NCBI GenBank assembly: GCA_029262415.1
Contig: JAJCZL010000009.1
Location: forward strand, 1-64,000
Origin: Deltaproteobacteria bacterium
GTDB taxonomy: Bacteria; Desulfobacterota; Binatia; UBA1149; JAJCZL01
Direction of reading: 5' to 3'
DNA length: 64,000 nt
Shown: in pieces, positions 12,395 through 62,427 of the stretch
Layout of the letters: each line of letters starts with the position of its first letter
Numbering within the stretch: position 1 is the stretch's first letter
Position numbers and translations under genes: made by a program
The notes under the pieces: generated by a model
The model's input: only the letters and a program-made list of their open reading frames with translations
Told to the model about the DNA's origin: nothing
The model's database searches: none

Positions 12395-14939
<2,545 letters not shown>

Positions 14940-30722: not shown

Positions 30723-32495
30723 TCAGTTCTTAGGAACGATCTTGAAGACTTCGCCGCCTTGGTGATCGACCACATAGATCTCGCCGCGCGCATCACGACC
30801 GAAGCTCGATATCGACGAGATAGTGCGGCTGCCGGGCGGGTCGAGCTCGCCGGTGCGGTCGGTGAGCTGAGTCACCGAATTGCCGCTGAAGCGGAAGGTG
30901 CGGATAACGTCAGTGCAGTAATCGGCGAAGAAGTAGGTTCCTGCCAGCGCCGGGAGCGTGCAGCCGCGGTAGACCCGGCCGCCGGTAACCGAACATCCGC
31001 CCTCGGGCGCGGGACCGTGCGTGTACTCGTAGGCAGGAGGCACGAAAACAGAAGCCAGCTCAGCGCAGGTGCTCCCCAAGGGCAACGGGTCGAAGCAGTT
31101 CGTCCCTTCCCAAACGTCCCAACCGAAGTTGTATCCGCCCGAGTTGCCCGCATCCACAACGTCGATCTCTTCGCGCTGACTCTGGCCGACGTCGCCGATG
31201 TATATCTGGCCGGTGAGATCGTCGAAGCTGAACCGCCAGGGGTTACGCAGCCCGGATGCCCAGATCAGCCGGTTCACGCCCTGCGCGTTCTGGTAAGGGT
31301 TACTGGACGGAACATTGTAGTACGGAGCACTCGCTCTGTTTACATCGAGGCGTAGAAGCTTGCCGAGAACCGTGCCCGGATTTTGCCCATTCTCCCAGGG
31401 GTCACCCCCATTGCCGCCGTCGCCGAGCGAGTAGTACAAATAACCGTCGGGACCAAAGGCGATCTGCCCGCCGTTGTGGTTGCCGGCCGGCTGCACGGTT
31501 CGCAATAAGATCTCGTGTGGATCGCGCAGTGCGCGCTCAGGACTGTTGGGGTCGCGGTGATAGCGCGCTAGGATCGAACTGCCGCCGTTCTCGGTGTAAG
31601 ACAAAAAGAAGCGGCCGTTGCTCGCATAGTTCGGGTCGAACGCAATGCTGAACAAACCGCGTTCGTTGACCGCGTGCGTGCGGTCGGAGATATCCAGAAA
31701 CGGCTGCGACTGCTTCACGCCGTCTTTAACAAGTTGAACCCGTCCGTCCTGCTCGACTATGAACACGCGTCGTGTATCCAGCGGCGGTGACGCGAGATGG
31801 ACCGGGAGCAACAAGCCCGCAACAAACAGTTCGGTGCCCAGCGCGCTCCCCGAGGCTACAGGCACGCCGGCACACAAGGCACTCTCGTCGGTCAGCCGGC
31901 AGGAGGGAGAACAACCATCACCTGGCGCTAGATTGCCGTCGTCACATCCTTCACCGGGTTCGATCACGCCGTTGCCACACCCACTGGGCAGAAGCGTCGT
32001 GGTAGTCGTCGTCGGCGGCACGGTCGTGGTGGTCGTCGCCGGCGGAAGCGTCGTAGTCGTCGTCGGCGGCAGCGTCGTCGTGGTGGTCGGCGCAGCCGTC
32101 GTCGTGGTCGTCGGCGGCGGCACCGTCGTCGTGGTGGGCGCGGCCGTCGTCGTTGTCGGCGCAACAGTGGTGGTGGTTTCCGGTTGCTCGCAACGCGGAC
32201 AAGCAAAGTCGATACCAATCCCCACCGCAGAGCGCAGGCACATCATCGCGTCGGTGGTGTCGATGCGATCGTCACCGTCAATATCGCAGACGCACAGCTC
32301 GCACTGCTCAGCACCAACCGCGGCCTGAAGCGTGAATAGACAGTCAACCACTGTCGGGCGTGGTTTATCTGCCGAAACCGGTTGTCCGCAAAGGTGCGCG
32401 TCGGCGTGGGTCGCCGTCGGCAAGGCAAACAATAAACCGGCGAGAGCCCGGTACACATGCGCGTAGGAAAACAACGGTGGTAGGGACGAACGCAT
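30723..32495 (-). CDS. Secreted PQQ-type sugar dehydrogenase with dockerin-like and Cys-rich repeat domains
   Basis: A 590-residue modular protein. Order: signal peptide (1-33); a dockerin-like calcium loop DIDGDDRIDTTDAMMC (71-86) in a Cys-rich region; a Thr/Pro linker of about 60 residues (107-168); a DUF4215-type repeat CGNGVIEPGEGCDDGN with SPSC; then a six-bladed propeller of the glucose/sorbosone dehydrogenase family (GLFSIAFDPNYASNGRFF, NHNGGQIAFGPDGYLYYSLG, ASGLRNPWRFSFD). The propeller in relatives binds PQQ and oxidises sugars; here activity is unproven. The front modules suggest an extracellular, surface-attached enzyme. Confidence 0.85.
   Translation of the reverse strand: MRSSLPPLFSYAHVYRALAGLLFALPTATHADAHLCGQPVSADKPRPTVVDCLFTLQAAVGAEQCELCVCDIDGDDRIDTTDAMMCLRSAVGIGIDFACPRCEQPETTTTVAPTTTTAAPTTTTVPPPTTTTTAAPTTTTTLPPTTTTTLPPATTTTTVPPTTTTTTLLPSGCGNGVIEPGEGCDDGNLAPGDGCSPSCRLTDESALCAGVPVASGSALGTELFVAGLLLPVHLASPPLDTRRVFIVEQDGRVQLVKDGVKQSQPFLDISDRTHAVNERGLFSIAFDPNYASNGRFFLSYTENGGSSILARYHRDPNSPERALRDPHEILLRTVQPAGNHNGGQIAFGPDGYLYYSLGDGGNGGDPWENGQNPGTVLGKLLRLDVNRASAPYYNVPSSNPYQNAQGVNRLIWASGLRNPWRFSFDDLTGQIYIGDVGQSQREEIDVVDAGNSGGYNFGWDVWEGTNCFDPLPLGSTCAELASVFVPPAYEYTHGPAPEGGCSVTGGRVYRGCTLPALAGTYFFADYCTDVIRTFRFSGNSVTQLTDRTGELDPPGSRTISSISSFGRDARGEIYVVDHQGGEVFKIVPKN
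31992..32177 (-). repeat. Thr/Pro-coding tandem repeat (linker)
   Basis: Low-complexity DNA of degenerate 3-15 bp repeats encoding TTTTVAPTTTT-like units, residues 107-168 of the sugar dehydrogenase. Such linkers separate domains in secreted proteins and may be O-glycosylated. The unit length keeps the frame, so copy number could vary between strains. Confidence 0.8.
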
Positions 32496-54741: not shown

Positions 54742-56733
54742 CTACCAATGCACCCCGCTCATCAAATGGGCGAAGGCGAGCGCCTCGTCGGGGAGTTCGC
54801 CGCTCTCGCCCGGCCCCGCTCCCTCTTTGCCCCGTGCGGCGGCGGAATCCGGGAAGATCTTGTATGCAGTGTTGAGCACCACATCGACAGCCTTGGGCGC
54901 GGTGGCGTAGGCGATCTGTCCGAACACGCCGAGCTTTGTCGAGACACGCTTGGGCCGATCAATCATCGCGGTGGCGATCATACCCGCAGCCTCGTCGGCG
55001 GTGATAGTCGGGAAGGCGCGGTAGATAGTCGTCGGCGCGATCATCTCAGTGCGTACCAACGGCATGTACACGGTGGTGATGCGCACCCCGTCCTCGACGA
55101 GCTCCGAGGCTGCCACCCGAGAAAAGGCGTCAAGTGCCGCCTTAGAAGCAACGTAGGCCGAGAAGCGCGGCGGGTTCGTCTGCACGCCGATCGAGCTGAC
55201 GTTGATGATGTGTCCGTGGCCGCGCTCACTCATGCCGGGGAGAAAACCGAGGATTAGCTTGATAGCTCCGAAGTAGTTGAGGCGCATCGTGCGCTCGAAA
55301 TCGTGAAATCGGTCGAGCGACAGTCTGAGCGAACGACGAATCGAGCGGCCCGCGTTGTTCACCAGAATGTCGACGCCGCCGCGCTCGCGCACCACTTCAG
55401 CGACAAGGCGGTCGCAATCGGCAAGGTCGGAGAGGTCGGCGGTGTGAATGTGTGCCGTTCCGCCGGCCTCCGCGATTTCGCCGCGCACCGTCTCGAGCTT
55501 TTCGACAGAGCGCGCCACCAACAACACCACACCGCCGGCCGCGCCCACCGCAAGCGCCGTGGCGCGTCCGATCCCGGCCGAGGCGCCGGTGATCAGCACA
55601 CGCTTTCCCGCAACCGCGCCGGCCAGCGAACGGTCGCGAAAAAGATCGGGGTCGAGGCGGCGCTCCCAGTAGTCCCAAAGACGCCATGCATACGACTCAA
55701 GCGGAGGCACCTCGATACCGCTCCCCTCCAGGGCCGCGCTTGCCTCGCGGGCGTCGAAGCGCGTCGGGTAGTCGAGAAAGCCCAGCACCCGGCGCGGAAT
55801 GCCCAACTCTTCGAGTACACCGTCGGTGATGCGTCGTATCGGAGTCATGCCGAGTAGTGCCGTGCGCAACGGACGTGGCACTATACCGCCGGCTTTCATA
55901 TCGACACGCAGGCCGAATTCCGGCGCATGCGCGGCGCGGGCAAAGACGTTCATGGTCTTGCCGAGGGTGGTAGGTTTAGGATCGGTCAAGTGGAAGCAGC
56001 GTCCGTCCAAGCCGTCGGCATGCGCGAGATGGTCCATGGCGGCAGCGACGTAGTCGACGGGTACGAGATTGATCTCTCCGCCCTCTATCCCAACCAACGG
56101 AACCCATTGCGGCAATGCCGCGCGCAGCTTCTGCAGCATCTTGAACAGATAATAAGGGCCGTCGACCTTATCTATCTCACCGGTGCGCGAGTGGCCGACG
56201 ACGATTCCCGGTCGGTAGATGCGCCAAGGCCGCTTGCACGTGGTGCGAACGAGTCCTTCCGAGTCGTGCTTGGTCGCAAAGTAGGGGTCATCGAGCCCCT
56301 CGGCCTCCTCGAACATGTCTTCGCGCCAAAGACCGCGGAAGCGGCCGGCCGCCGCGATCGAACTCGTGTGATGAACGCACCCGGCCGCCATCGCCGCGGC
56401 CGCTTGCAAAGCGTTGCGCGTGCCGTCGATGTTGGCGCGCGCCATCGCGTCGGCGTCGGCGGTCATGTCGTAGAGGGCTGCGAGGTGAAAGAAGTGGTCG
56501 ACACCGGTCAAGCGCGCGACGGCTGCGTCGTCGAGTCCGAGCCGCGGCGCAGTCAGGTCCCCCGCCTCCGCAAGCACACGGTCGGCGTGCGAACCCCAGT
56601 TACGCTTGATTTCGTCGAGTTTGCCTCGCGAGCCCTCGCGCACCAGCACATGCACGGTGCCCCCGCGTGTAAGCAGCAATGGCACCAGGTGTCGCCCGAT
56701 GAATCCCGTGGCTCCGGTGACGAAGTAGCGCAT
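54742..56733 (-). CDS. Two-domain fatty acyl-CoA reductase (SDR-SDR fusion)
   Basis: A 663-residue protein with two Rossmann domains. The N-terminal extended SDR (1-370) has VTGATGFIGRHL, the HHTSSIAA serine and DPYFATK (YxxxK). The C-terminal classical SDR (about 385-620) has LITGASAGIGRATA, NNAG, NVSSIG and YVASK. This length and order are those of bacterial fatty acyl-CoA reductases such as the Marinobacter and mycobacterial proteins, which reduce acyl-CoA to fatty alcohol through the aldehyde with NADPH. The product could feed wax ester or ether-lipid synthesis. No wax synthase gene is in the window. Confidence 0.82.
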   Translation of the reverse strand: MRYFVTGATGFIGRHLVPLLLTRGGTVHVLVREGSRGKLDEIKRNWGSHADRVLAEAGDLTAPRLGLDDAAVARLTGVDHFFHLAALYDMTADADAMARANIDGTRNALQAAAAMAAGCVHHTSSIAAAGRFRGLWREDMFEEAEGLDDPYFATKHDSEGLVRTTCKRPWRIYRPGIVVGHSRTGEIDKVDGPYYLFKMLQKLRAALPQWVPLVGIEGGEINLVPVDYVAAAMDHLAHADGLDGRCFHLTDPKPTTLGKTMNVFARAAHAPEFGLRVDMKAGGIVPRPLRTALLGMTPIRRITDGVLEELGIPRRVLGFLDYPTRFDAREASAALEGSGIEVPPLESYAWRLWDYWERRLDPDLFRDRSLAGAVAGKRVLITGASAGIGRATALAVGAAGGVVLLVARSVEKLETVRGEIAEAGGTAHIHTADLSDLADCDRLVAEVVRERGGVDILVNNAGRSIRRSLRLSLDRFHDFERTMRLNYFGAIKLILGFLPGMSERGHGHIINVSSIGVQTNPPRFSAYVASKAALDAFSRVAASELVEDGVRITTVYMPLVRTEMIAPTTIYRAFPTITADEAAGMIATAMIDRPKRVSTKLGVFGQIAYATAPKAVDVVLNTAYKIFPDSAAARGKEGAGPGESGELPDEALAFAHLMSGVHW

Positions 56734-56932
56734 GTTGTGAGTACTCCTTGGGCATCACCACAACCCTTTTCCGGGAGCACCCCTGTCGGCAACGGTAGTG
56801 GATCGGCGTGGCGCGGACGCTAGCCGATTCGACAGTCGATTCCAACGCTCGGTCGGCGGCGATCCGCTGTGTGCGATCGACGCCGAGTTTGTTCGACGGG
56901 CGCTTGAGGGCCCCCGCGCGTCATTGCCCTTT

Positions 56933-57295
56933 CTAGGGCTTTTTGGGCTTCTTGGGCTTCTTGGGCTTTTTGGGCTTCTTCGGTTTCTTCGGTTTCTTGG
57001 GCTTCTTGGGTTTCTTGGGTTTCTTCGCCTTCTTAGGCTTCTTGGGCTTCGGGGCTGGGTCGACTGTGCCGGGTGCGCTGGTACCGCCGGTGTCAGCGGC
57101 AGCGGCAACGTCGGTTTGTGCGTCGCCTTTTAAAGCCGCCACGTTTTGCGCAAGGACACTGCTGAGAGAAGAACCAAAGGTCGAGGTCACCGTAATCAAG
57201 GCGACGGCGATCATGGCTAGAATAATCGCGTATTCCGCCATCGTAGCTCCGGCGGGATCCACCCACAGTTGCTTCAGTCGCTTGGAAATCCTCAT
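56933..57295 (-). CDS. Flp-family pilin with a polycationic (PKK)n tail
   Basis: A 120-residue protein. MRISKRLKQLWVDPAGATMA followed by EYAIILAMIAVALIT is a classic Flp/Fap pilin: basic leader, G before the cleavage site, Glu and Tyr at mature +5/+6 and a single hydrophobic helix. A Thr/Ala/Pro linker (residues 57-82) leads to twelve tandem (P/A)KK units and a final Pro (84-120), adding about 25 lysines. Flp pilins normally stop soon after the helix at 50-70 residues, so the tail is the oddity. GGAGG lies 7 nt before the ATG. The other Tad-type genes are 48 kb away in this window. Confidence 0.82.
   Translation of the reverse strand: MRISKRLKQLWVDPAGATMAEYAIILAMIAVALITVTSTFGSSLSSVLAQNVAALKGDAQTDVAAAADTGGTSAPGTVDPAPKPKKPKKAKKPKKPKKPKKPKKPKKPKKPKKPKKPKKP
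56936..57046 (-). repeat. 9-bp tandem repeat coding PKK units
   Basis: Twelve 9-bp units (reverse strand CCC-AAG-AAG with synonymous changes; one unit begins GCG for Ala) plus one codon. The unit is a multiple of three, so changes in copy number would lengthen or shorten the pilin tail without breaking the frame. Synonymous variation shows it is selected as protein, not a very recent slippage product. Confidence 0.85.
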
Positions 57296-57482
57296 CCGTC
57301 CGCCTCCGTTGTAACCCGCAACCCCCGGAATGGGCTCCGACACTACACAATAGCCGTTTACGCTCGTCAGGACGGCAAAACTTACCGCGCACAGCGGTTG
57401 CGCAATAGTGTGGGCTGTCGGCGGGTCTTGTTCAGGCGGGGAGTAGCGACACCGTCCGCCCTCGGCTCCCGGGCTTTTCTGG

Positions 57483-57708: not shown

Positions 57709-59295
57709 GTGAACGCTACTGAAGAACTGCTGCTGATCCTGGCCGACCCGGCCTGCTACCCCAATCGCCCTGGGTCGGTGGAGATCGTGCAGACCCACAT
57801 CTCGATCGTCAGCATCGCCGGCGAGTTGGTCTACAAGTTCAAGAAACCGGTGCGGCTACCGTTTCTCGACTTCTCGACGATCGAGCTACGGCGCCACTAC
57901 TGCCGCGAAGAAGTGCGGTTGAACCGGCGGTTGTGCCCCGACGTCTACCTCGGCACAACCGCACTCGCGCGCACCGCCGACGGACCGCGGCTGGGCACTC
58001 CCGGCGCCGACGACGTTACCAACACGATCGACACCGCAGTGGTCATGCGGCGACTGCCGGCCGATCGGATGCTCGACCAGTTGTTGGTCGAAGGTGCAGT
58101 CTCCGCAGTCGAGATCGCAGCACTGGCGCGGATGGTCGCCCGTTTCCACGCCGAGGCCGCGCGCGGTGCCGCAGTGCGAGCGGCCGGCGCACCCGAGCGG
58201 CTGTTGCAGTCGGCACGCGAAAACTTCACCGAGATTGCCGCGCTAGCCGTACACGGCATGTCGTCCGAACTGCTCAGGGTAATGCAGCAGTTGACCGACG
58301 ACGATTTCGCGTGGCTGCTGCCGGTGTTGCACGAACGCGCCGACGCCGACCGCGTCATCGACGGACACGGCGACCTGCATACGCGTAACGTCTGCATGAC
58401 CGAGCCGCCCGCGATCTACGACTGCATCGAATTCTCGGCCGTATTCCGTTGCGGCGACGTCGCCACCGACATTGCGTTCCTCGACATGGATCTGCGCTAT
58501 CGCGGCGCGCCTGAGTTGGCGACAGCGTTCGTCGACGCCTACGTCGCGCACAGCGGTGACAAGGATGTGCTCGGGCTGCTGCCGCCGCTGTCACGCTACC
58601 GCGCGATGGTGCGCGCCAAGGTCGCAGCAATGACCGCCTCTGAAGCGGAAATCGACTGCGCCGATCGCGACGGCGCACGAAGTAGCGCCGCACGGCACCT
58701 GCAACTGGCCGCGGCATCTGCGCTGGAGTCAAAGCTGCGGCGTAAGCAAACTCCACTGTGGCTGTTGCTGTGCGGACCACCGGGAAGCGGTAAAAGTTCG
58801 CTTGCTGCGCGGCTCCGCTACGGAACGAACTGGCCCTGCTTGGCAACCGACGCGATACGCAAGGAACTGGCCGGCAAAGCGCTGAACGAGCGCCTCAATG
58901 CGTCTCACTACAGTGCTGCGTTCTCGGAGCGCACCTACGCAGAACTGCTGCGGCGCGCAGCCGCGGCACTACGCGGCGGAGTGCCGGTGGTGGTGCTCGA
59001 CGGCAACTTCCCGACGCCTGATCATCGCTGCACGGCCGCCGCTGCTGCGCGCGCCGCCGGCGCCGAGTTCGTTTGTCTCTATGTTGACGTCGATGAGGAG
59101 ACCGGCCGCACTCGAGTCACTACGCGCGCCGAGGATCCACACCGCATCAGCGACGCCGGCCCCGCTCAATACGACGAACTGCGTGCCCGCTTCGTCGCAC
59201 CATCGGCGGCCGAGCACATCGCCGTGCATCGGCTCGACGCCACCGGCGCGCTGGCCGATGTCGCGGCGATAGGGTTCGCACGGCTGCTTGTCTGA
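57709..59295 (+). CDS. APH-like kinase fused to P-loop ATPase
   Basis: A 528-residue protein. The N-terminal aminoglycoside-phosphotransferase-like domain (1-340) has VYKFKKPVRLPFLDFST, the catalytic loop VIDGHGDLHTRNV and an Asp in DCIEFSAVFRCGDVATD. The C-terminal domain has Walker A LLCGPPGSGKSSLAARL, ATDAIRKEL and a late RVTTRAEDPHRISDA block, as in the AAA-33 / zeta-toxin-like kinase group. This fusion is common in bacteria and of unknown substrate; it is not evidence of antibiotic resistance. GTG start. Confidence 0.82.
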   Translation: MNATEELLLILADPACYPNRPGSVEIVQTHISIVSIAGELVYKFKKPVRLPFLDFSTIELRRHYCREEVRLNRRLCPDVYLGTTALARTADGPRLGTPGADDVTNTIDTAVVMRRLPADRMLDQLLVEGAVSAVEIAALARMVARFHAEAARGAAVRAAGAPERLLQSARENFTEIAALAVHGMSSELLRVMQQLTDDDFAWLLPVLHERADADRVIDGHGDLHTRNVCMTEPPAIYDCIEFSAVFRCGDVATDIAFLDMDLRYRGAPELATAFVDAYVAHSGDKDVLGLLPPLSRYRAMVRAKVAAMTASEAEIDCADRDGARSSAARHLQLAAASALESKLRRKQTPLWLLLCGPPGSGKSSLAARLRYGTNWPCLATDAIRKELAGKALNERLNASHYSAAFSERTYAELLRRAAAALRGGVPVVVLDGNFPTPDHRCTAAAAARAAGAEFVCLYVDVDEETGRTRVTTRAEDPHRISDAGPAQYDELRARFVAPSAAEHIAVHRLDATGALADVAAIGFARLLV

Positions 59296-59974: not shown

Positions 59975-60850
59975 TCAGGGCTTTTCTGCTCCTATCTTTG
60001 CCAGTGCCTCCTTGCGCGCCTGCTCGGCGATCGAACGGACGGCCGTCAGCTCTTTCTCGAATGCGTCGAGGTCGAAAGCATGCCAATGGCGAGACGACAA
60101 ACGCAGTTGGCGTTTGCCCTCATCGATGCGCAGCATGATACGCGCGGCGCACGAAGAGCCGTCACCCAACAGGCCGACGGCGATGACCGCTTGCTCGAGT
60201 TCTCGCTCTGTATCCAAGACATGCTCCAAGGCTTTACGCGCCGCTTCGGCGACCTCGGGCTTGACGCCCGGGTCGTCGGTGTTGTGGCACAGCGAACAGC
60301 GACCGGCGAGCTGCAGCGGATTGACTGAACCGACGTCCATTTCGAAACCGTGACAGGTGGTGCAGCTTGGCGCCAGACGATCATCCTTGAGCTCTCGGTA
60401 GTGTTTGCTGGTAGCGAACTGATCGCTCACGGCCTTGTGGCATTTGCCGCAGGTTTCGGGGAGGTTCTTGAAATACACTGGACTCTTGGTATCGCGAGAC
60501 GGCACGATGTCGCGATGGGCGCCGTTCTTGTCGGGATGCTTGGGATCGCCGCCGTGACATTTTTCGCAGGTAACGGCTTTCTGACCGTGCACGGCTCCGT
60601 ACCAATGCAAGAACTGGTCTTGCGCCCAAGGCGCGAACTCCTTAGCGGTTTCAGCGGTGCGATGGCACGCCACACAGGTGTTGCTCTTCGTCGAGGTCTT
60701 TGACGATTCCGCCCGGCAGTTACCGGCGGGTAGGATGAGCGCCACCGAGGCCGCCGCAAGCACGATGCCGCTGCGCCGCCATGCCGCGCCGACGATGTCA
60801 GTAAGGGCCTTCACCACCGTCGTGGCACATTGTGCACTCTGTGTACTCAT
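59975..60850 (-). CDS. Pentahaem cytochrome c
   Basis: A 291-residue exported protein with five CxxCH haem sites: CVACH, CEKCH, CGKCH, CTTCH and CSLCH, all between residues about 55 and 200. A hydrophobic segment (GIVLAAASVALILPAG) serves as signal or anchor. The C-terminal 90 residues are helical, without haem sites (ALEHVLDTERELEQAVIAV). The ATG at 60850 (GAGG upstream) overlaps the upstream cytochrome gene by 53 bp; GTG codons at 60817 or 60814 are alternatives. It likely accepts electrons from the membrane cytochrome encoded just upstream. Confidence 0.82.
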   Translation of the reverse strand: MSTQSAQCATTVVKALTDIVGAAWRRSGIVLAAASVALILPAGNCRAESSKTSTKSNTCVACHRTAETAKEFAPWAQDQFLHWYGAVHGQKAVTCEKCHGGDPKHPDKNGAHRDIVPSRDTKSPVYFKNLPETCGKCHKAVSDQFATSKHYRELKDDRLAPSCTTCHGFEMDVGSVNPLQLAGRCSLCHNTDDPGVKPEVAEAARKALEHVLDTERELEQAVIAVGLLGDGSSCAARIMLRIDEGKRQLRLSSRHWHAFDLDAFEKELTAVRSIAEQARKEALAKIGAEKP

Positions 60851-62321
60851 CGATTTCCGCCTCGTCGCCGCGATGAAAGAACAGCTGGCCTTTCGCAAAG
60901 TCAACGCCGTTCGACGGCGTCGATGACTGGACCAGCACCACGTGACATTTCGTGCAGGTGTGAAACACCGTCTCTCCTTCGCTGGTCACCAGGCTGTCAT
61001 TATGGCATCGAAAACATCCCTCTGTGTCACGGTGGCCGATGTTGTCGGGGTATGTATCCCAGCGTACGTCCATTTCCGGGAAGAAGTTGTGGCTATAGAT
61101 GTCTTGTAGGGTTTGGATAGCGGCACCGACAAGATCCCCAGATCCGGCAGCCGGCGGATTCTCCCTGTAATAAGACGTAAGCGCCTCATCAATCGCTCGT
61201 CGTGCGGCCGACTCATCGGCGTACTCCGCTGCCAATACGTAGACGGCCTGTTGCTTGATGGATGGCAACGCGGGGTTGAGTCGCCCACTGGAAAGGGCGC
61301 GGTTGACTGCCACCGCCGGGCTGGTGAACTGATGTGCCGGTCGGCTATGGCAATCAACGCAGCCCATCGTGTGGACCGGAAGCTGGGCTAGCTCCTCCGG
61401 CGTCGTCGAATCCCTGCGACGTTGGAATACCTTAGTTTTCCCGTCCGGTTCAGTAACCTCTATACGAAGAATTTTCGACTTGTCGTCGCCGCCGGCGACG
61501 AACTGAACCGTGCGTCCGAGCATCATGTGGTAGTGAATGCCTTCTCCCTCTTCGCCGCCCGGCTTGATGCCGCCGACGTTGACCAGAAGGCGCAGTTCTG
61601 ATGGCTCATTGCCCTCGTCGGCTCCGAAGTACTTGTAGATTTTCTCCTTGTAGCCGACCCAGCGATCGCGCCAGTGGCATGTCTGACAGGCGGTCGACGG
61701 TGTCGGCCGGCTATGGGGCGAGACCCGTACCGGGCGCTCGTATATGCCGGTCGCGACGCCCCAAAGTTGTTTGACACCGCGGAGTTTCGCTTCAGCAAAG
61801 GATCCGGCGCCCGAGCCGACGTGACACTGAACACACTTGACACGTGCGTGTGGTGAATGCTGGTGGGCCGTGTCTTGGGGCCCCATTACCGCGTGACAAG
61901 CCCCGCCGCAAAAAGAGTCCGATTCGACGTAGTGCACCGTCTTGTAGGTACCGGCGCCCAAGGTGCCGAACGCGAGTACCACGGCCGCGACAACGCCGAG
62001 AGCGATCCCACGGTCGCGCGCGCGGTGCAGATCCAGCGCTCGAACACCCCATCGCCTCGGCGGCTTGCCGGCCCGGCGGCGGCGCGCCGTAAGCGCGGCA
62101 CCTATTAAAGCAACGACAAAAGCGGAGCCTCCGATCAGCGCCAGCAGCACATAGGCGACACCGAGATAGGCGAGTTCCAGATGCGAAAAGAAGTCGAGCG
62201 CGAGCAGCGAGAGGGCAAGGCCCACCGCCAGCAGAGAAACCGCAAAACCGCCGAGGCTGGTCCAGTTGTAAAAAGCCTCTTCGAGTGGTGCCGCGTTGGG
62301 TCGTAAGGACTTCTTATCCAT
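60798..62321 (-). CDS. NapC/NirT-type heptahaem membrane cytochrome c
   Basis: A 507-residue protein. Three N-terminal helices (AVSLLAVGLALSLLALDFF, VAYVLLALIGGSAFVVALI, GIALGVVAAVVLAFGTLG) precede the haem domain. The first site is CGGACHAVM, a CxxxCH form with Met as in NapC/NrfH-like quinol dehydrogenases of this kind. Six CxxCH sites follow: CVQCH, CQTCH, CVDCH, CFRCH, CTKCH and CTMCH. It should oxidise membrane quinol and pass electrons to a periplasmic partner, probably the overlapping pentahaem gene. No terminal reductase catalytic subunit is adjacent. Confidence 0.87.
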   Translation of the reverse strand: MDKKSLRPNAAPLEEAFYNWTSLGGFAVSLLAVGLALSLLALDFFSHLELAYLGVAYVLLALIGGSAFVVALIGAALTARRRRAGKPPRRWGVRALDLHRARDRGIALGVVAAVVLAFGTLGAGTYKTVHYVESDSFCGGACHAVMGPQDTAHQHSPHARVKCVQCHVGSGAGSFAEAKLRGVKQLWGVATGIYERPVRVSPHSRPTPSTACQTCHWRDRWVGYKEKIYKYFGADEGNEPSELRLLVNVGGIKPGGEEGEGIHYHMMLGRTVQFVAGGDDKSKILRIEVTEPDGKTKVFQRRRDSTTPEELAQLPVHTMGCVDCHSRPAHQFTSPAVAVNRALSSGRLNPALPSIKQQAVYVLAAEYADESAARRAIDEALTSYYRENPPAAGSGDLVGAAIQTLQDIYSHNFFPEMDVRWDTYPDNIGHRDTEGCFRCHNDSLVTSEGETVFHTCTKCHVVLVQSSTPSNGVDFAKGQLFFHRGDEAEIDEYTECTMCHDGGEGPY

Positions 62322-62427
62322 GGTCGCGATAAGTATAGTGCAACTCTTATACCAATCCAACTTCAGCGCCGACCCCTCATAACCCAAGCGAATGCCTCAT
62401 TTGCGTGGAAAGTCTCACTGCAGGGGG

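Follow-up and report, generated by a model that had tools for sequence, protein, structure and literature searches.

The question raised by this locus is whether a pilin gene that ends in a lysine-rich tandem repeat encodes a working pilus subunit and, if so, what its tail would do. The gene lies in the window, the whole stretch of 64,000 nucleotides that was analysed (source genome: 3.91 Mb, 83 contigs), on the minus strand, with its ATG at 57295 and its TAG at 56935-56933, exactly the coordinates given in an earlier note on this DNA. The prepilin translates as MRISKRLKQLWVDPAG/ATMAEYAIILAMIAVALITVTSTFGSSLSSVLAQNVAALKGDAQTDVAAAADTGGTSAPGTVDPAPKPKKPKKAKK(PKK)9P, with the slash at the cleavage site, and the features of the gene are as follows:

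56933..57295, minus strand: orphan flp gene for a 120-aa Flp-type prepilin with a polycationic C-terminal tail (from the translation)
57303..57307, minus strand: Shine-Dalgarno-like GGAGG, 7 nt before the ATG (upstream sequence ...ACAACGGAGGCGGACGG-ATG)
57248..57295, minus strand: prepilin leader MRISKRLKQLWVDPAG, ending in the cleavage-site Gly of G/ATMAEY (from the sequence)
57128..57247, minus strand: mature pilin helix ATMAEYAIILAMIAVALITVTSTFGSSLSSVLAQNVAALK, residues 17-56 (from the Pfam match, 12-51, and the AlphaFold2 helices)
57053..57127, minus strand: linker GDAQTDVAAAADTGGTSAPGTVDPA, residues 57-81, uncharged to acidic, between helix and tail (from the sequence and low pLDDT)
56936..57052, minus strand: polycationic tail, residues 82-120, made up of PK, 12 xKK units (11 PKK, 1 AKK) and P

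Flp prepilins are defined by the motif G/XXXXEY, which is the processing site (PMC4322843). The tailed pilin carries this motif intact, together with about 20 hydrophobic residues (G/ATMAEYAIILAMIAVALITV), and Pfam family Flp_Fap (PF04964) matched residues 12-51 of the prepilin at 38.6 bits, the curated threshold being 32.2; the match bears out the earlier description of the N-terminal half as a normal Flp pilin. Weak matches to Tad pilins were obtained in the PDB, to 8u1k over residues 17-56 (E = 0.007) and to 8u2b over residues 17-51 (E = 0.019). Single-sequence AlphaFold2 predicted helices at residues 19-40 and 42-66 and gave its lowest pLDDT at residues 70-77; with a mean pLDDT of 70.6 and a pTM of 0.27, this model confirms only a helix and an unstructured tail. 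A Tad machine and a prepilin peptidase, also expected for the family, are encoded in the same genome. The gene is an orphan on contig C9, outside the tad locus that is the usual but not obligatory position, and the prepilin of 120 aa, with a mature part of 104 aa, exceeds the 50-80 aa typical of the family. As this size is usual and not obligatory, and the protein falls within the range once linker and tail are left out, it was filed as an Flp variant; the mature part was at least 60 residues long in 15 of 146 surveyed Flp pilins. Identity as a TadE/TadF minor pilin was rejected: these are about 150 aa long and have a G/XXXXE[FS] site (PMC4322843), whereas the window pilin has an EY site, 120 aa and a low-complexity C-terminal part. 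A crude scan for the sigma-70 consensus found no promoter-like site upstream of flp.

The tail is encoded by a 9-bp array, to which Tandem Repeats Finder assigned 13.3 copies and a score of 156 at 56931-57050. What had been described as twelve PKK units are twelve xKK units, eleven of them PKK and one AKK. The estimate of about 25 lysines was accurate, 25 being present beyond mature residue 45, and the net charge beyond mature residue 38 is +22. Elsewhere in the 3.9-Mb genome (PKK)3 was not found, and the backwards control pattern also gave zero, so that the array is no product of chance. Comparison of the 12 units with their consensus revealed 11 base differences, of which 10 fell at third codon positions, all 10 of them silent. 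Under an even spread over codon positions, at least 10 of 11 third-position differences would have p = 1.3e-4, a value to be taken as a guide, given that a unit copied from another carries the same changes and the events are not fully independent. The same differences change residues in the antisense frames (F/L and others), and one other sense frame contains a stop. This bias towards silent change indicates that the array has remained PKK for long enough to diverge silently, and argues against a non-coding repeat and against a recent slippage artefact; on this basis, the tail is in all likelihood a translated sequence whose amino acids selection has retained. The earlier remark that a 9-bp unit allows frame-neutral changes of length is correct as arithmetic; the units do, however, differ from one another silently. 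Reading of the array on the opposite strand, as hydrophobic GFL repeats, was considered and rejected, the differences being silent in the pilin frame only.

The flp gene is flanked on one side by a gene for a two-domain reductase (54742-56733, minus strand; NAD_binding_4 and adh_short) and on the other by a divergent gene for a fused APH/AAA_33 kinase-like protein (57709-59295, plus strand), whose homologues within the order are just 34-39% identical. Within the portion of the window that was inspected, no Tad genes were found. A Tad locus is present on contig C21 (G000:C21) at approximately 19.3-26.7 kb, and encodes two T2SSF proteins (TadB/TadC), a T2SSE ATPase of 528 aa (TadA/CpaF), a TadZ/CpaE-like AAA protein, a secretin, RcpC/CpaB and a 199-aa A24 prepilin peptidase. 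No pilin gene was found in this stretch of C21, and three tail-less Flp genes (60, 60 and 61 aa) stand in a row on contig C1. Since all Flp pilins found in the genome are unlinked to the machine, the orphan position of the tailed flp is less odd than it first appears, and the ordinary tail-less Flp pilins are likelier bulk subunits than the tailed pilin. When homologues of the kinase and reductase neighbours were inspected in genomes of the order, with flanks of about 1.5 kb on each side, no Flp gene was found beside them. The orphan position, taken with these pilin-less flanks at the neighbours' best homologues, suggests that the tailed flp may be a lineage-specific oddity. On C21, a ComEC-family protein is encoded at 12457-13290, on the same strand as the Tad locus and about 6 kb away from it; in all, a comEC-family gene and uvrC-like and uvrB-like genes lie close to the Tad locus, on a single strand, at 12.4-26.7 kb of this contig (L205, L126).

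The comparison with relatives for tailed Flp pilins that the earlier note had proposed was made with family and protein searches of 58 relatives, of the class (148 genomes) and of the phylum (395 genomes); numerous Flp pilins were returned, all of them lacking a PKK tail. No close homologue of the whole protein was found in genome representatives or viral contigs, and no sister strain was found in which the repeat number could be compared. The survey set, 146 distinct Flp-like sequences taken from the search matches, had a median mature length of 42 residues; the window pilin, at 104, ranked second in length, after L151 (109), with L022 (79) third. Its net charge of +22 after mature residue 38 compares with at most +3 in all the others. 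Four class matches to the tail only (L053, L063, L064 and L077) were rejected as K/P-rich stretches of non-pilin proteins.

Representative genomes were then scanned for an EY[A/G] pilin motif with KKxKKxKK 47-67 codons further on, a pattern that would miss KP, AK or Arg tails and other spacings. Twenty-seven stretches were recovered, and inspection left one genuine further case, L096, an Flp pilin with a (DKK)n tail from an Actinomycetes MAG (PTATEYAVLMVLIIFGALTAIS...KDKKDKKDKKDKKDKGSKKDQKESERKGQR; contig DAOVKO010000235.1, match 1190-1378). Like the window pilin, it has an Flp signature and then a Lys-rich three-residue tandem repeat at the C-terminus; it differs in its unrelated linker and in a net tail charge of just about +6, owing to the acidic residues of (DKK)n. 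Given the distant taxon, its tail is probably of independent origin. L022 (G027:C1, about 2271091-2271222), from the same class as the window pilin, likewise has a three-residue, Pro-containing repeat tail, (PSG)n, built from 9-bp units with silent variation, but this tail is uncharged and collagen-like in composition. L151 (G225:C23, near 79267-79401), the 109-residue Flp-like pilin, has a Gly/Ser-rich extension that runs into a Lys/Gly-rich stretch (QGRGQGKGKGQGKGLGRL) with a short GKGKGQGKG end, and two Flp pilins of one genome (L009 and L027, G002) end in poly-serine (ESSSSSS and ASSSSSSS). The finding of (DKK)n, (PSG)n, Ser and Gly-rich tails implies that low-complexity Flp tails arose several times with differing chemistry; PKK is the extreme cationic case among those seen. 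No description of a lysine-repeat-tailed Flp pilin was found in the open-access literature searched, an absence that is no proof of novelty.

The reading that we favour, and hold to be moderately probable, is that the window pilin is a subunit of a Tad (type IVc) pilus, likely a minority one, that bears a polycationic brush and binds polyanions. We infer the expression, processing, incorporation and surface exposure of the tailed pilin, and its ligand likewise. The prepilin would insert with its N-terminus in the cytoplasm and would then be cut after G16 by the prepilin peptidase of the genome. The leader carries the positive residues R2, K5, R6 and K8, and residues 42-80 hold one Lys and four Asp; under the positive-inside rule of membrane protein insertion, the leader positives and the Lys-poor residues 42-80 favour an N-in/C-out orientation. 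The mature protein would co-assemble with tail-less Flp pilins, probably as a minority subunit, through the Tad machine on the other contig, its N-terminal helix packing in the fibre core and its linker of about 25 residues spanning the surface. From there the linker and the PKK tail, predicted to be disordered and stiffened by proline, should project outwards as a brush. The strong positive charge of the tail could then bind polyanions by non-specific electrostatic attraction, candidate ligands being extracellular DNA, humic matter, silicate surfaces and, on other cells, LPS or teichoic acids. Electrostatic attachment is the likely job of the tailed pilin, with DNA capture as one option.

Known pili offer several points of comparison. 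The window pilin shares G/XXXXEY, a hydrophobic N-terminal helix and genomic Tad machinery with the Caulobacter PilA-type Flp/Tad pilins (8u1k, 8u2b), and departs from the usual Flp/Tad major pilins in its 120-aa prepilin (against 50-80 aa), in the position of its gene outside the Tad locus, and in its extra linker and 39-residue polycationic tail. The solved structure of the Caulobacter Tad pilus shows the C-terminus of the pilin pointing outward, and Glu5 and Tyr6 of the mature pilin, both present in the window pilin, form inter-strand hydrogen bonds (PMC11067988). In the modelled Kil pilus of Myxococcus xanthus, the charged C-terminal region of the Tad pilin KilP unfolds and coats the fibre (PMC12075869), which likewise places C-terminal charges on the fibre surface; KilP differs in serving as major subunit of its own dedicated Kil system, and the account of it consulted here reports no PKK tandem repeat. 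The Flp competence pilus of Micrococcus luteus, which is linked to DNA uptake, tolerates addition at the C-terminus, a Strep-tagged pilin being processed and assembled (PMC4322843); it differs in that its pilin is ordinary in size, with a 77-aa prepilin and a mature form of 4.4 kDa, and is encoded inside the tad cluster.

The charge of such a fibre was estimated with the Caulobacter geometry of three strands and a 14.7 A rise, read as three pilins per 14.7 A. By this calculation, a pure tailed fibre at +22 per subunit would carry about 45 charges per nm, approximately 7-8 times B-DNA, a density that points to a minority subunit mixed with tail-less pilins, or to charge masked by bound polyanion. 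The earlier interpretation is supported by the Flp pilin identity, the intact cleavage site, the Tad machine with its prepilin peptidase and the outward C-terminus of the Caulobacter pilus, but a sparse tailed subunit is more plausible than the densely cationic fibre first envisaged. Counting against a polycationic pilus, besides the orphan gene and the negative promoter scan, the export of about 25 lysines opposes the positive-inside tendency, though the tail is far from the membrane segment, and charge repulsion would hinder a pure polymer.

It is rather unlikely that the window pilin serves in DNA uptake, the PKK tail capturing DNA specifically and Tad retraction drawing it to the ComEC channel. 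The C-terminal tails of linker histone H1 are Lys/Pro-rich and disordered, and lysine-rich tails of this kind bind DNA well. The likeness to H1 drawn in the earlier note is one of composition and does not extend to homology, Flp_Fap being the sole Pfam match of the tailed pilin, with no histone-like family detected; H1 is, moreover, intracellular, whereas the PKK tail is predicted to be extracellular. The nearness of the comEC-family gene to the Tad locus on one strand would fit with uptake, but ComEC is widespread (detected in 10 of 14 control genomes) and the uvrB-like and uvrC-like genes separate it from the Tad locus. Transformation of Micrococcus luteus and Liberibacter crescens depends on Flp/Tad pili (PMC4322843, PMC8513845); M. 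luteus, however, transforms with an Flp pilin of ordinary size, so that a tail is unnecessary for the process. Nothing singles out DNA as the ligand among polyanions.

Also unlikely is a membrane-anchored regulator, in which the pilin domain would stay in the inner membrane and out of the fibre, while the tail, on either side, would bind DNA, RNA, polyphosphate or lipids, or the protein would act as a capping or spacing pilin. An orphan gene would suit such a role, as would the extreme charge, which should disfavour polymerisation, and a pilin reservoir in the membrane is normal for Tad systems (PMC11067988). The cleavage site and helix are nevertheless intact, including the Glu5/Tyr6 pair of inter-subunit contacts, and the leader charges favour C-out insertion. 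Neutral expansion, in which slippage of a 9-bp unit at the 3' end of a redundant pilin gene would have left a tail that is functionless or unmade, is very improbable: simple repeats expand readily, and the gene is an orphan in a genome with three other Flp genes and has no tailed relative in the sets searched, but its units have diverged by differences that are silent in 10 of 11 cases in the pilin frame and residue-changing in other frames, and its start, ribosome-binding site and pilin motif are all intact.

If the tailed pilin is a polyanion-binding Tad pilus subunit, as we favour, its interest lies in what it says about surface chemistry in the simplest pili. Tad pilins rank among the smallest of the type IV pilins and have no globular head, the part from which other pili derive their binding chemistry. 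A pilin with a disordered, tunable repeat tail in place of such a head would offer evolution a simple way to new fibre surfaces, and would allow surface recognition by Tad pili to be tested directly by removing or swapping tails in laboratory strains. The pilus is of a known kind but the PKK tail is not; the tailed pilin is an unusual, apparently lineage-specific variant within a well-known family and no new system. More tentatively, and with some doubt, Flp pilins might be a platform for repeatedly evolved repeat tails that tune fibre charge, with the PKK form as a dedicated polycation-coated pilus that captures DNA or other polyanions. A natural fibre displaying polycations would be useful for the study of DNA capture and mineral adhesion.

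Two further features of the window were observed. At 59975-62387, on the minus strand, two adjacent genes encode multihaem cytochromes, one a NapC/NirT-like plus c3-type protein and the other a c7-type protein, and their position next to a peroxiredoxin gene suggests an electron-transfer module. A CGT-rich tandem repeat at 31995-32161 encodes Thr/Pro linkers (TTTTTLPPTTTTT) of an ordinary low-complexity kind, within a secreted 590-aa protein (30723-32495, minus strand) that, judged by eye, looks like a glucose/sorbosone dehydrogenase.
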